From the IMG/VR virus record IMGVR_UViG_3300031851_000111, positions 1 to 30,852 of that record: 30,852 nt of DNA, one strand, 5' to 3'. Origin of the DNA: a virus. Shown here in pieces: positions 9,104 through 25,788 of this stretch; position 1 is the first letter of the stretch, and every line of letters begins with the position of its first letter. The notes beneath the pieces were generated by a model. That model was not told where the DNA came from, searched no databases, and was given only the letters and a program-made list of their open reading frames with translations. The position numbers and the translations under genes are program-made.

Positions 9104-10636
9104 TTATCCTACTCTAATTATTCTTGATTTAAGAGGTTGTCTGAAATTATAGCCGAATTGACTACCACTTCCACTAAAACTTGCAGCTGAACTTGCCATT
9201 GTTAATGCAAGCGCATCTGCTTTATCTGGAGACTTAATACCTCTTTTGCGCATCTCGTCTTTACTTTCTATTTTTATTTTACCACTAGAAGTATATTTAT
9301 ATAAGGGGGAAGCTAATTCAGCTTCTAATTCATTATCATCTGGTAATCTACAATCTCTATGCGACAACCAATCCTTAATAGCAAACCACAACTCCGCACG
9401 CAAGTTTAAATAATTTTTTTTCGTAGCAGGTGCTTCGGCAACATTCACGCCACGCACAGGTAAGTTTTGCTCGGCGAGTCTATCCACCACGCCTGCGCCT
9501 AAACCAATTACATCAACCAATATTTCTTGTGGTCGCTCTATCGCAGTAGCATCATCATAACGATTTTTTATCAGGCCACAAAACTGCATTAGATCCATAG
9601 AAGGAAAAGACTGTATTTCAAGTACATGGTTTCCTTGACGCACGCATAGTGCAGATTTATCTCCACCAAATCTTGCGACATCAACACCCCAAACGATAGG
9701 CTCGCTTGCTGTAAGAGAGACATCTCTATCGACTGCGCTTTTAATTAGTTCCATTGGTATAACAGTATCATCATCCGCGGATGGGAACTCGCCCATCACC
9801 TCCACGCGCGCAACGGTAGAATCTTCGCCGTACTGCTCAATCATCTTGGAGAAGAGATCCTTGTCCGTGCCTTCAACCGTGCGTGAGTCGATCTGCTCGT
9901 TCTTCCAGAATGGTTTTGCGCTGTGGAAGGAATCGTAGAAAGGTCCTTGATTCCTGCGTGGGTTGGAAAAAGTAAACCAAAATCTGTTAGGCGTGGGTTC
10001 GGAGAAGAAACCCTCAGATACAGAATAAATAGGAGAAGGAATACCTGATGCTTCATCCATGATCAGGCATACGCCGTAAGATGAATGGATGCCTGCAAAC
10101 GCATCTGGGTTTTCCTCGCTCCATAACTGTGCTTGGGCATAATAATAACCAGTATCAATCTTTAGATCTCGCTCTAAAGCCTCATCAAACCATCCAGATG
10201 GCTTTATGGTTGTAGCAGTCTTTGCCCACCAATGAGAATTTATTGATAATGTGAGCCATTTACCAAGCTCTGCCCATGTTCTACTTCTTAACTGTTGTTC
10301 GGTGTTAGCAGTAACAATTACTGTGGATCCAAGTCTGGTTGATAACATCCATAAAACAATCCAAGACACCAAAGCTGATTTACCAATACCACGTCCAGAT
10401 GCTACAGCCATTCTAAACATCTCTGGCAAGTCCTTCATACCATTACGTTGAATGTGTATTGTCATTTCTCTCAAAATTTTTTCCTGCCACTTCCTTGGAC
10501 CTGTAAAATCTTCGAGGGGGGTGTCTTTTATTCCCCAAGGGAACACGAATTTAACAAAGTTTAGTGGATTGTCTTTGATTACTGGTGACCAAAGCTCAGT
10601 CATTAACATTTTTTCATCTTCTGGCTTATATTTCAT
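9104..10636 (-). CDS. Terminase large subunit
   Basis: 510 residues. ATPase domain: Walker A SGRGIGKS (80-87), Walker B LIMDEAS (D194/E195), and the TFSNPRR coupling segment (about 222-228). Nuclease (RNase H-like) domain: GVDVARFGGDKSA (D319), LVDVIGLGAG (D375) and SPDKADALAL (D471/D474), the three acidic clusters of the family. It pumps and cuts DNA at the portal. The start at 10636 has only a weak GAGA upstream. The middle of the gene (about 9770-9960) is visibly richer in G and C than its surroundings. Confidence 0.95.
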   Translation of the reverse strand: MKYKPEDEKMLMTELWSPVIKDNPLNFVKFVFPWGIKDTPLEDFTGPRKWQEKILREMTIHIQRNGMKDLPEMFRMAVASGRGIGKSALVSWIVLWMLSTRLGSTVIVTANTEQQLRSRTWAELGKWLTLSINSHWWAKTATTIKPSGWFDEALERDLKIDTGYYYAQAQLWSEENPDAFAGIHSSYGVCLIMDEASGIPSPIYSVSEGFFSEPTPNRFWFTFSNPRRNQGPFYDSFHSAKPFWKNEQIDSRTVEGTDKDLFSKMIEQYGEDSTVARVEVMGEFPSADDDTVIPMELIKSAVDRDVSLTASEPIVWGVDVARFGGDKSALCVRQGNHVLEIQSFPSMDLMQFCGLIKNRYDDATAIERPQEILVDVIGLGAGVVDRLAEQNLPVRGVNVAEAPATKKNYLNLRAELWFAIKDWLSHRDCRLPDDNELEAELASPLYKYTSSGKIKIESKDEMRKRGIKSPDKADALALTMASSAASFSGSGSQFGYNFRQPLKSRIIRVG

Positions 10637-10643
10637 AAAAAAA

Positions 10644-10781
10644 TTATCTCACTATGTATTTATAATTACCGCCACCGCCAATAAACAAAGGGGGGTCAAT
10701 TCTGTTTTTACTAGCACGCTCACGAACGCAAGAAAATCCTTGTGCAAATATGCACGGACGCTTGTGCGTGCATGCATGCAT
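10644..10781 (-). CDS. Possible 45-residue ORF between terminase subunits
   Basis: An ORF fills the gap between the two terminase genes, starting just after the small-subunit stop and ending 7 bases before the large-subunit start. The C-terminal part, ASKNRIDPPLFIGGGGNYKY, looks protein-like. The N-terminal part (MHACTHKRPC) is translated from a GCATGC repeat and may be noncoding. There is no clear ribosome-binding site. It is listed as possible only; the DNA repeat here is treated separately. Confidence 0.35.
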   Translation of the reverse strand: MHACTHKRPCIFAQGFSCVRERASKNRIDPPLFIGGGGNYKYIVR

Positions 10782-10783
10782 GC
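10741..10783. repeat. GCATGC tandem palindrome and small hairpin
   Basis: GCATGCATGCATGC (10770-10783) is a self-complementary run preceded by GTGCGT. A separate hairpin, GTGCA-AATA-TGCAC, lies at 10742-10755. Both fall between the terminase genes, where several phages keep a packaging (pac or cos-like) site. The run stands out in AT-rich DNA. Function is unproven. Confidence 0.5.
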
Positions 10784-11203
10784 TTACTTCTTAATGTCAT
10801 CTAGCTTTAGCCTTTCCTCTGGAACCGTCTCTCCTTCGATCACGCGTGCTTGCGCGACTTGCATAACATCCTTGAGGTTTAGATTGTGCTGGACCTCCTG
10901 GCGGTCGCTCCATTCCTCTGGAGATCTATTTTTTAGGTAGAACTGGATCGCTTGGAAGTTGCCTTCGTGGATTTGATTCATCAATGCGGACGTGGCTACT
11001 TTCATTCCAGCCGCCTTGCCGCGTGCGAGAGCCTCCGAAATTTCCTTTTTACGCTTTCTATTCTTGTTGAACGTATCCCATCCAATACCAAGAGATCGGC
11101 AGATATCCATGATTCCCAAGCCTTGTGCAGCTAACATCTCTACCTGGTCAGCATCAATAATAATCTTTTTTCTTCCTGGTTTTCCACTCGGCATTTTGCT
11201 CAT
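10784..11203 (-). CDS. Terminase small subunit
   Basis: 139 residues. The N-terminal helix-turn-helix is seen in QVEMLAAQGLGIMDICRSLG, followed by GWDTFNKNRKRKKEI, the DNA-recognition part of small terminases. ALMNQIHEGNFQAIQFYLKN, then SPEEWSDRQE, is the classic end of the oligomerisation core. It recognises the packaging site and recruits the large subunit. Two starts are possible, ATG 11203 or the ATG four codons later; neither has a strong Shine-Dalgarno. It is the first gene of the minus-strand late block. Confidence 0.85.
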   Translation of the reverse strand: MSKMPSGKPGRKKIIIDADQVEMLAAQGLGIMDICRSLGIGWDTFNKNRKRKKEISEALARGKAAGMKVATSALMNQIHEGNFQAIQFYLKNRSPEEWSDRQEVQHNLNLKDVMQVAQARVIEGETVPEERLKLDDIKK

Positions 11204-15654: not shown

Positions 15655-16095
15655 CTAGCTCTCCTTAATAATCTCGTAAGCTAAACTAACCAACAGATAA
15701 TGCTTCTTCCCACTCGCCTGGCTCTTCCTTAACCTACCCTCCACGCCTTCAAGCACGCACCAGACAACCTCACTCTCTATCAGCTCCTTCATGGCCCTAC
15801 CAGCAGTTCGTCTACTAACACCAATCATCTTGCAATAATAACTAACTGCATCGTGAGAACTAAAAGTTTCAAATCGATACCTCTCACATACCGCCCAGAG
15901 TAAAAGCTTCGCACTCACGCTCAGATCCTCACGCCCACATTCACGCCTGTAGATCTTCCACACGCATGAGCGCATCTTCATATAATTATCACTCACGCAT
16001 GCAAGTGGGACTAATCCGCTTCTATGTAGCTTGGGAACTTCTACTGGAACCACCCACCAGAAATCTTTATTTTTTCTATCGAACTTTCTAATCAT
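15655..16095 (-). CDS. Winged-helix DNA-binding protein, replication-associated
   Basis: 146 residues. LLLWAVCERYRFETFSSHDA, then SYYCKMIGVSRRTAGRAMKE, followed by LIESEVVWCVLEG, is a winged helix-turn-helix of the kind found in phage and plasmid replication initiators (HTH_36-like). The N-terminal WWVVPVEVPKLH is unassigned. It is the last gene of the replication operon, directly downstream of repeats that could be its binding sites. Initiator is favoured over repressor, but this is inference. The Shine-Dalgarno is weak (GGAA, about 11 bases). Confidence 0.68.
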   Translation of the reverse strand: MIRKFDRKNKDFWWVVPVEVPKLHRSGLVPLACVSDNYMKMRSCVWKIYRRECGREDLSVSAKLLLWAVCERYRFETFSSHDAVSYYCKMIGVSRRTAGRAMKELIESEVVWCVLEGVEGRLRKSQASGKKHYLLVSLAYEIIKES

Positions 16096-16271
16096 GCACG
16101 CACGCTTCCGTTCTTGCTTGCGTTCCTGGAGGAGGAAAACGCCTTAGCGTTTCTCCGACTCCTATAACATGGTATGTTATGGATATATGCGACAAGTTGT
16201 CTATAGTAGATACCATTTTTGTCGCAAGCAGGTACCATTTTTGTCGCATGTTTGTTAAAAGTTGATTTCAT
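16092..16271 (-). CDS. Possible 59-residue ORF overlapping repeat region
   Basis: From ATG 16271, with AAGGACGG just upstream, the ORF overlaps the end of the primase-helicase by 17 bases, and its stop overlaps the start of the winged-helix gene (ATGA). This is the same arrangement as true genes here. Against it: no recognisable fold (MKSTFNKHATKMVPACDKNG), and the repeats inside it are spaced 22 bases, so they are not in one frame. It may be a real gene, a translated leader or chance. Confidence 0.4.
   Translation of the reverse strand: MKSTFNKHATKMVPACDKNGIYYRQLVAYIHNIPCYRSRRNAKAFSSSRNASKNGSVRA
16164..16248. repeat. Iteron-like repeats and palindrome, candidate origin
   Basis: TACCATTTTTGTCGCA occurs twice (16211-16226 and 16233-16248, 22 bases apart). 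An inverted TGCGACAA lies at 16189-16196. ATAACAT-GGT-ATGTTAT (16164-16180) is a perfect palindrome with 7-base arms. The group lies between the primase-helicase and a winged-helix protein, as expected for an origin or operator. Confidence 0.6.
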
Positions 16272-20050: not shown

Positions 20051-20780
20051 TAGTTTCTCCTTTGTTATATTGTTTATATAAATCGCAGATGCTTCTTGCG
20101 TTACAAAAGCGACAATGATCCCCATAAACGTATACAGGGTTTTCCTCCAAGCATGCATCCACGCACGGCTGTAAGAAATCGTAGGCCCAATCCACCAGAA
20201 ACTCTGCGGTGGTGTTCCATGTCTTGATAGGTCCGCCACCCCATGTTGCGCGTGGCTGGACTATTGTAATCTCTACTTCAGTATCTTCATTGCCATAACG
20301 AGATAATGCACCAACTGCATATATCATGGCTTGTTTGTTGTGTTCTGGACTGACAGGATATTTACCTGTTTTTAAATCTATAACGCACATTTTATGTGGA
20401 GTGATTATTAGTGCGTCTGCATAACCATATAGATCTTCTGATATTTCTTGGCATCTAACTTTTTGTTCTACTAATAATTTGCCGTTTAATCTTTTTGCTC
20501 TCTCTTGCACATATTCCACATAAATCTTTGCGCAATCAATCATGTCTTGGTCGACTGTTATTTCAAAATCTTCTACATATTCTTTTTTACCAAGCCAATA
20601 ATCTTCAAGTGTGACATCAACTAAAAATCCTTTTAATAGTTGTTCTGTCATGTTGTGAATTAAAGTACCAACAGCGGCAGGCAAGCCAACTTGATAATCA
20701 ACTTTTGCTGCAAGGGTAGGCATACCTGGACAATTAGTCCATTTTTCAGCAGCTGATGGGCTAAGTTTGGCGTGTTTCAT
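20043..20780 (-). CDS. PD-(D/E)XK exonuclease, Cas4/RecB-like (DUF2800)
   Basis: 245 residues. SPSAAEKWTNCPG at the start and GYADALII (D122) plus VIDLKTGK (D135-x-K137) form the PD-(D/E)XK site. Cysteines C17, C223, C226 and C232 (CRFCNARSIC) have the spacing of the iron-sulphur cluster of AddB/Cas4-type nucleases. This is the DUF2800 family, proposed to resect DNA ends for recombination. The start overlaps the HTH gene by 20 bases. Confidence 0.85.
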   Translation of the reverse strand: MKHAKLSPSAAEKWTNCPGMPTLAAKVDYQVGLPAAVGTLIHNMTEQLLKGFLVDVTLEDYWLGKKEYVEDFEITVDQDMIDCAKIYVEYVQERAKRLNGKLLVEQKVRCQEISEDLYGYADALIITPHKMCVIDLKTGKYPVSPEHNKQAMIYAVGALSRYGNEDTEVEITIVQPRATWGGGPIKTWNTTAEFLVDWAYDFLQPCVDACLEENPVYVYGDHCRFCNARSICDLYKQYNKGETNE

Positions 20781-20961
20781 GTGATACCCTTGCTTCTGCT
20801 TCTGCCTCTATGATTTCGTCAATATCATATACAATTTTACCATTTAGGTTTAAATAGTCTGGCCCTGTTTTCTTTGCGCGCCAGCCCTCTATGGTTCTTG
20901 GAGATCTTCTCCATCTTTGAGCGAGTTGCTTAGTATCTAAAAAGATTTTATCTTTTTCCAT
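20761..20961 (-). CDS. MerR/excisionase-type HTH regulator
   Basis: 66 residues. LDTKQLAQRWRRSPRTIEGW, then RAKKTGPDYLNLNGKIVYDI is the HTH_17 fold used by excisionases and small regulators. As the first gene of the replication operon it may regulate its own two-faced promoter. No integrase is present, so a role in excision is not supported. GGGAG lies 7 bases before the ATG. Confidence 0.78.
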   Translation of the reverse strand: MEKDKIFLDTKQLAQRWRRSPRTIEGWRAKKTGPDYLNLNGKIVYDIDEIIEAEAEARVSHETRQT

Positions 20962-24630: not shown

Positions 24631-25788
24631 CTACTTTAAAAAACCAAAAGGATTAAAACTGCCTGTCCATGCAGATCCTAATAAACCAGCTGCGCCACCT
24701 AATACATCGCCTAATCCAGTTTTTTGGCTACCAGTTGTTGATGTAGTTACTAATGGTGTACCCATACCAGCTTGTAATAAGCCAATTTGTTGAGGTCCAT
24801 AACCAAGAGCTCTTGCAAATTCTGCTCTTTGTGCATCGATTGCTCTTTGCTGTAAAGCCTGCTGCTGCGCACCTGCGCCTCCTAGCAATCCTAATTGTTG
24901 TATTTGCTGTCCTTGTAAGCCACCTAGCAAGCCTGCTCTTTGTTGTCTTGCCTGCATCTCTAATTGTGGCTGTGTTAATGCAGCTCTGCCAGCAATATCT
25001 AAGCCACCTAATTGTCTTTGTTGTTGTAGTTGTGCTTGTTGCATCCTTCTTTGTTGTCCAAGCTCTGCACCAAAGATACCTGCTTGTTGACCAAGTTGTG
25101 CTTGTTGTAATGCACGCTGTTGCTGCTGCTCTGAACCAAACATACCCAACTGTTGTTGTCTTGCTAAATCAGCTTGTGCTGCTGCTTGCGCCTGCTCAAA
25201 ACCAGATTGTCTTAAACCAGCTGCTGTTCTAGCCATTTGTTCTGCGTAAGGTCTTTGTGATTCAGACTCTAATAATGCAGATCTTGAACCGCCGAAAGCA
25301 CCTGCTCTAATTGCTCTATCCTGCGCACCGCCACGCGCTATGTCAGCTTGTCGCTGTATGTCGCCCATTGCTAAATCTATGACTTGTTGTTGATACGGAG
25401 ATTGATAGGCTCCTATGTCCTGGCTTAGTAAACCCCTGAACTGTGGAGCAGATACTGGACCTATTTGAGCTGCGCCTGGAGCTTGTGTTGCTTCTATGGT
25501 TGGTGCTTCAAAACCAGTAACAGGTTGTATGGTAGGTCTAAACTGATCTTGTGCCATACCTTGTAAGGCTTGTGTTGGGTCATAACCCATACCAGATTCA
25601 AACATACCTCTAGTAGCTTGAAACTGTCGTAGTTGATCTGGTGAGAAACCAGCAACCATTGGTCCTGTATAGGGTAAGAATGGTTGTTGTGATACACCTT
25701 TAGCTGCACCAAAAAGCTCTTTAAATTGTGCTTCTTGGAAAGCTGGTAAACTTGCTTCTGATACTGTTGTGGTTTTTCCTTTACTCAT
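24631..25788 (-). CDS. Ejection / internal virion protein C, Gln-rich
   Basis: 385 residues. The N-terminus LPAFQEAQFKELFGAAKGVS is followed by a very Gln/Ala-rich, long helical section (QQRALQQAQLGQQAGIFGAE and repeats of this kind, about 150-330), which gives open antisense frames. The C-terminus is hydrophobic (GLGDVLGGAAGLLGSAWTGS). The pattern fits T7/P22-like internal proteins that form the conduit into the cell. Role is inferred. Confidence 0.68.
   Translation of the reverse strand: MSKGKTTTVSEASLPAFQEAQFKELFGAAKGVSQQPFLPYTGPMVAGFSPDQLRQFQATRGMFESGMGYDPTQALQGMAQDQFRPTIQPVTGFEAPTIEATQAPGAAQIGPVSAPQFRGLLSQDIGAYQSPYQQQVIDLAMGDIQRQADIARGGAQDRAIRAGAFGGSRSALLESESQRPYAEQMARTAAGLRQSGFEQAQAAAQADLARQQQLGMFGSEQQQQRALQQAQLGQQAGIFGAELGQQRRMQQAQLQQQRQLGGLDIAGRAALTQPQLEMQARQQRAGLLGGLQGQQIQQLGLLGGAGAQQQALQQRAIDAQRAEFARALGYGPQQIGLLQAGMGTPLVTTSTTGSQKTGLGDVLGGAAGLLGSAWTGSFNPFGFLK

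Follow-up and report, generated by a model that had tools for sequence, protein, structure and literature searches.

The window analysed here, the whole 30,852-base stretch of an IMG/VR virus record, carries genes that include TerL and an SU10-type portal and comes from an uncultivated, probably marine phage. On its minus strand, the genes for a primase-helicase and a small winged-helix protein flank a compact repeat-bearing element that runs from 16252 to 16128 (Table 1). By Pfam analysis the larger protein joins two parts in one chain, a primase domain of the TOPRIM type (Toprim_3, E 7.5e-12) and a helicase of the AAA_25 family. When this protein was compared with the PDB by phmmer, RSF1010 RepA (1g8y, E 3.5e-7) was the only match below 0.01, and the helicase half is kin to RSF1010 RepA. 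Elsewhere in the window, 20761-20961 encodes a 66-residue excisionase- or MerR-like protein (weak matches only) upstream of an exonuclease gene.

Table 1. Features of the element and its flanking genes, with position in the window, strand and description.
TOPRIM primase / RepA-like helicase, 610 aa	16255..18087	(-)	Pfam Toprim_3 + AAA_25
Open frame of 59 codons spanning the element	16092..16271	(-)	ATGA overlap with winged-helix start
Iteron unit 1	16231..16252	(-)	AACATGCGACAAAAATGGTACC; 22-bp register in window and relatives
Iteron unit 2	16209..16230	(-)	TGCTTGCGACAAAAATGGTATC; exact 16-mer match to unit 1
Iteron unit 3	16187..16208	(-)	TACTATAGACAACTTGTCGCAT; core TGCGACAA inverted
Invariant box ATATCCAT	16179..16186	(-)	found in 68/68 relatives
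Hairpin 1, AT-rich palindrome 7+3+7	16164..16180	(-)	candidate unwinding element or hairpin
Hairpin 2, longer stem	16128..16162	(-)	between palindrome and winged-helix gene
Winged-helix protein, 146 aa, proposed initiator	15655..16095	(-)	weak HTH_36/PHROG 270, AlphaFold topology, iteron tracking

The 146-residue protein scored 20.2 bits against HTH_36 (PF13730) and its best relative 24.9 bits, both below the family cut-off of 25, and it matched PHROG 270 ('replication initiation protein') weakly, with an E of about 1e-3. An AlphaFold model (mean pLDDT 69) has the topology of a winged helix with an extra N-terminal helix, and places the presumed recognition helix at residues 95-107. A fold search with the model gave generic winged-helix matches only (best E 0.014) and was not informative; the fold matches, like HTH_36 itself, include transcription regulators. 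There was no Pfam match to the RepC family, no sequence match among solved proteins, no homologue in annotated phages or plasmids, and no tblastn match in plasmids at E up to 1. The gene has a G+C content of 45%, compared with mostly 31-40% in other genes, and only the terminase small subunit (46%) and 24631-25788 (44%) come close to it.

A first-pass annotation of this DNA had pointed to repeats and a palindrome between the two genes as a candidate replication origin, and every repeat it named is present. TGCGACAAAAATGGTA occurs twice on the minus strand as an exact 16-base direct repeat (16211-16226 and 16233-16248, 22 bp apart), an inverted 8-base copy of TGCGACAA lies at 16188-16195, and the palindrome pairs ATAACAT with ATGTTAT. 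At up to three mismatches TGCGACAAAAATGGTA has a single further site in the window, with three mismatches, and at least three matches arose in 1 of 100 shuffles. The extent of the element needed revision, being 16128-16252 rather than 16164-16271, and three components had gone unseen: a third 22-bp unit that holds the inverted copy, the invariant box, and the second hairpin.

To place the element among relatives, 80 loci with the primase-helicase, 38 with the 146-residue protein and 13 with an exact match to the 16-mer were retained from scans of viral contigs, and the layout was surveyed in the 68 loci with a readable winged-helix gene start. All 68 have the same order: three or four units of 22 or 21 bp, the box ATATCC(A/G)T, hairpin 1, hairpin 2 and the winged-helix gene. 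The AT-rich segment adjoining the iterons, made up of ATATATCCAT and the AT-rich palindrome, holds a fixed position in every locus, and the box reads ATATCCGT in the most distant clade. The period is 22 bp in 43 loci and 21 bp in 25, the shorter one belonging to one clade. Chance is excluded by these relatives, since 67 of 68 loci show a 21/22-bp period that stands out from dinucleotide shuffles at a p of 0.05 or less, and the palindrome forms in 30 of 32 distinct segments, compared with 2.2% of shuffles. The one exception to the period (L005) has an inverted unit. From the box to the winged-helix start the distance is about 75-119 bp throughout, and insertions of about 0.7-2 kb are confined to the interval between helicase and iterons.

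The first-pass annotation had proposed comparison with relatives as a check, and the comparison bore it out: where both genes are retained the architecture is retained, with its bases replaced wholesale. No clear counter-example that keeps both genes and lacks the repeats was found among the loci examined. Helicase loci in which no winged-helix gene was detected end no more than about 1.7 kb past the helicase stop, and in other loci the gap between the genes reaches 2 kb. One such locus without a nearby winged-helix gene (L052, on the 36,926-base contig G002) has that gene at the opposite end of the contig from the helicase, which makes this contig permuted or circular with ends near the origin. 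Six of the 13 exact 16-mer matches are true relatives. Another (L004) was rejected after its whole record was searched and gave no winged-helix relative, and the remaining six, with neither gene in the stretch examined, are compatible with chance. A locus from a bacterial genome collection that was retrieved by protein similarity alone (L133) has the box, both hairpins and an array of four 22-bp units that belong to a new class, as the layout predicts.

Two cultured phages carry repeats in both orientations and hairpins directly downstream of a distant TOPRIM-helicase, namely Alteromonas phage PB15 (L130:5380-5620) and Salicola phage CGphi29 (L131:5500-5640), and in neither does a recognisable winged-helix homologue adjoin this gene. 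In many relatives (L026, L027, L031, L036, L041 and L062) an insertion in the interval from helicase to iterons encodes a small cysteine-rich protein, likely a zinc ribbon, that starts with MNCWHC or MNCWQC; in class 2 the last codons of its gene overlap the first iteron.

Both hairpins vary in ways that show it is pairing, rather than sequence, that is kept. Because the MAFFT alignment misaligns hairpin 1, pairs were counted from hairpin geometry, which gave 16 different arm pairs for hairpin 1 among the segments. In all 37 distinct sequences of classes 2 to 6, hairpin 2 consists of two stems, the lower with 6-7 pairs and the upper with 7-9, parted on the 3' side by a single unpaired base, and most of its positions show two to four pair types, with compensatory pairs. 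Class 1, including the window, has a variant with an internal loop. Folded as single-stranded DNA, the hairpins lie 5.5 to 7.9 standard deviations below shuffles in energy, and hairpins 1 and 2 of the window together give a z of -5.8. Hairpin 2 was considered as an intrinsic terminator and rejected, having no T-run, and no Rfam family matched the element at E up to 1.

Iteron sequences fall into at least seven unrelated-looking classes across the relatives. The first four are TGCGACAAAANTGGTACCTGCT (the window), TGCGAAGAAAAGTGTATCTGCT, TRTGGACAAAATGTACCTACAA and the 21-bp TTAGGGACATACTAGGGAACT type, and further ones are GGGAGTGTTAGGGACATACTAT, AACTATAGTAGAACTTACCCAT, those like TTGTAGCAAAGCGCTACAACGAC, and GGGACAAAACTACCCAATGAAC. 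Units are 0.49-0.76 identical within one array and 0.33 identical between classes, showing that the units of one array change together. Distance correlations over 51 non-redundant loci indicated which neighbour they change with: iteron distance correlated with winged-helix distance at r 0.92 and with helicase distance at 0.64. In partial Mantel tests the correlation of iterons with the winged-helix protein remained at 0.85 when helicase distance was held constant (p 0.001), and that with the helicase fell to 0.06 when winged-helix distance was held constant (p 0.11). On these figures the iterons change in step with the winged-helix protein, not with the helicase next to them. Physical linkage contributes to this covariation and is a partial confound; hairpin 2, which lies between the iterons and the gene, tracks the winged-helix protein less closely (partial r 0.68), and iterons still correlate with the protein at 0.74 when hairpin 2 is held constant.

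Individual loci follow the same pattern. L044 (contig IMGVR_UViG_3300038825_000621) has a helicase 74% identical to that of the window, a winged-helix protein 94% identical and the window's iterons, and is a recombinant that joins a helicase of the 74%-identical lineage to a window-type origin and winged-helix gene. In L026-L029 the helicase is 89% identical to the window's, the winged-helix protein is 64-66% identical, and the iterons are different. The sister classes 1a and 1b have exactly four fixed protein differences, at residues 59, 60, 98 and 100, all in the predicted winged-helix domain, with 98 and 100 in the presumed recognition helix. Residues 98 and 100 may therefore be regarded as first candidates for iteron specificity, a lead that draws on two distinct complete proteins for class 1b.

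From the architecture kept in relatives, and from repeats that change with the winged-helix protein, we infer, at a probability of roughly 0.8, that the phage starts replication here from an iteron-type origin, with the winged-helix protein serving as initiator and the primase-helicase loaded beside it. This agrees with the first-pass annotation, which had named the same protein as the possible initiator; its gene adjoins the iterons and covaries with them. The further suggestion that the origin may lie within or overlap a coding frame, as in lambda O, does not hold for the initiator gene, as the iterons end at 16187 and the initiator gene starts at 16095, which puts the origin just upstream. 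GC skew, also proposed as a check, was discarded as an origin marker and gives no independent support: raw skew follows gene direction, and fourfold-site skew on the coding strand has the same sign on both arms (-0.24 and -0.29), with no switch.

A plausible order of events can be outlined on this reading. The winged-helix protein would bind the 22-bp iterons on one face of the helix, and the adjoining AT-rich segment from ATATCCAT to the palindrome would open. The RepA-like helicase half of the 610-residue protein could then be loaded at the opened segment, and its TOPRIM half would make the first primer at an exposed hairpin, near hairpin 2. In outline this would resemble RSF1010, except that primase and helicase share one polypeptide and the winged-helix protein is a chain of its own.

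Among other explanations, the one that retains most weight, if a small share, is that the hairpins control translation or transcription of the winged-helix gene in its mRNA and that the iterons are a separate regulatory site. The hairpins would be transcribed with the gene if the operon reads through, and the pair-conserving changes described above fit RNA and single-stranded DNA equally well. Translational coupling is suggested by the open frame that spans the element. The 59-residue frame of the first-pass annotation does exist, with its ATG at 16271 and its TGA in a 4-nt overlap with the ATG of the 146-residue gene, and every locus of classes 1 to 3 keeps it open across both the iterons and the hairpins. 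Its stop in classes 1 and 3 falls on the winged-helix start or no more than 8 nt from it, often in an ATGA overlap, and the box-to-start distance in class 3 is almost always divisible by three. Class 1 would nearly always have a stop close to the gene start in any case, because ATGATTAG terminates the other two frames. Most loci of classes 4 to 6 lack the open frame, and many of them carry instead a purine-rich, ribosome-binding-like stretch before the winged-helix gene. Class 2 (L026-L029) has a low-complexity stretch of varying length, (AAGC)n / (GTGC)n, between hairpin 2 and the winged-helix start. As a conserved protein the frame was rejected, since it shows no protein-level selection, with neither a third-codon excess nor a codon-position bias, and since several lineages retain the origin but not the frame; it is possibly at most a leader for translational coupling. 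Control at the mRNA level is further opposed by the lack of a T-run or an Rfam match, by classes 4 to 6, which share the hairpins but not the open frame, and by the helically phased iterons, for which it does not account.

Slightly less probable again is that the iterons are an autoregulatory operator array at which the winged-helix protein represses its own gene, with the origin elsewhere. In its favour, the repeats precede the start of the protein's gene by 100-160 bp, transcription regulators occur both in HTH_36 and among the fold matches, and covariation of an operator with its repressor would look identical to that observed here. However, there is no conserved promoter (a single weak match on the appropriate strand spans unit 3 and hairpin 1), and an operator leaves unexplained both the constant partnership with the primase-helicase gene and the invariant box, AT-rich palindrome and bulged hairpin found at fixed spacing in all classes. 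Plasmid iteron initiators often autoregulate too, so an operator can hold together with the origin we favour. Packaging (pac) and partition sites can also be repeat arrays beside DNA-binding protein genes, but such a role is very improbable, with the terminase genes 4-5 kb away (9104-11203), no ParA-like gene recognised among the scanned proteins, and the array lying between replication genes in every relative.

As an origin, the element can be compared with several known systems. The phage lambda initiator O recognises iterons next to an AT-rich segment, much as proposed here, but lambda iterons lie inside the initiator gene, whereas those of the window lie upstream of the gene and the helicase is phage-encoded. 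Iterons of Stx phages appear in PMC7466680. In RSF1010 the iterons are bound by RepC, RepA does the unwinding, and the primase acts at stem-loops that have become exposed (PMC4234260). The oriV of IncQ-3 combines iterons of 20 bp with an A+T-rich region, a 15-bp box that is conserved, and a pair of palindromes, of which ACCCCCGGAGGGGGT is one (PMC7557826). The phage element shares with IncQ/RSF1010 the direct iterons of about 20 bp, the A+T-rich segment, the short invariant box, the stem-loops alongside and a RepA-family hexameric helicase, together with a separate iteron-binding protein, predicted in this case. ACCCCCGGAGGGGGT also resembles the upper stem of phage hairpin 2 in classes 3-5, AACCCCTTGAGGGGGTT. 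The phage element differs in that the primase is a TOPRIM domain fused to the helicase instead of a separate RepB' primase, in having no G+C-rich segment between iterons and AT-rich part, and in belonging to a tailed phage. By analogy the phage system may work like IncQ without being a member, as no RepC or RepB' relative was found.

The alpha protein of phage P4 combines the same three activities at an origin with repeats, namely TOPRIM primase, helicase, and iteron binding by a winged helix (PMC4234260). In P4 they share one polypeptide with an SF3 helicase, whereas in the window the helicase is RepA-like and a separate gene encodes the winged-helix protein. A parallel to the covariation is in PLE satellites, in which the DNA-binding domain of RepA_N varies in step with the iterons of the origin, the two being exchanged as one module, and in which an origin-directed nuclease that targets iterons is a selective pressure (PMC8263062). 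The PLE replicon differs in its unrelated initiator family and in belonging to satellites of ICP1 rather than a free-living phage group, and the group here has at least seven iteron classes with invariant flanking hairpins.

Iteron origins have been described before, and PLE satellites provide a known case of initiator-iteron covariation. The novel features are that two proteins are combined in this way, that the box and hairpins stay fixed, and that there are so many specificity classes; our incomplete coverage of the literature found no description of this phage origin. We give about even odds to the broader view that a widespread group of uncultivated phages uses an IncQ-like origin that a winged-helix initiator operates together with a TOPRIM-RepA fusion protein, and has repeatedly switched initiator and iterons together around a fixed box and hairpins, perhaps under origin-directed attack or incompatibility during co-infection. 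Phage origins are rarely recognised in metagenomic contigs, and this one was pinpointed by evolution alone. Among the relatives, genomes that are otherwise similar provide seven or more natural pairings of initiator with iterons, which makes two questions testable: which residues set the iteron specificity of the winged-helix protein, and why origin specificity turns over fast. The element also links tailed-phage replication to IncQ-type initiation, and the combination of a TOPRIM-RepA gene, 22-bp iterons, an ATATCC box and two hairpins provides a search template for other contigs. Phage DSL-LC05 (L135) has a TerL 48% identical to that of the window and an unrelated replication module with a primase/polymerase and a family B DNA polymerase, indicating that replication modules are exchanged between phages that share packaging genes.
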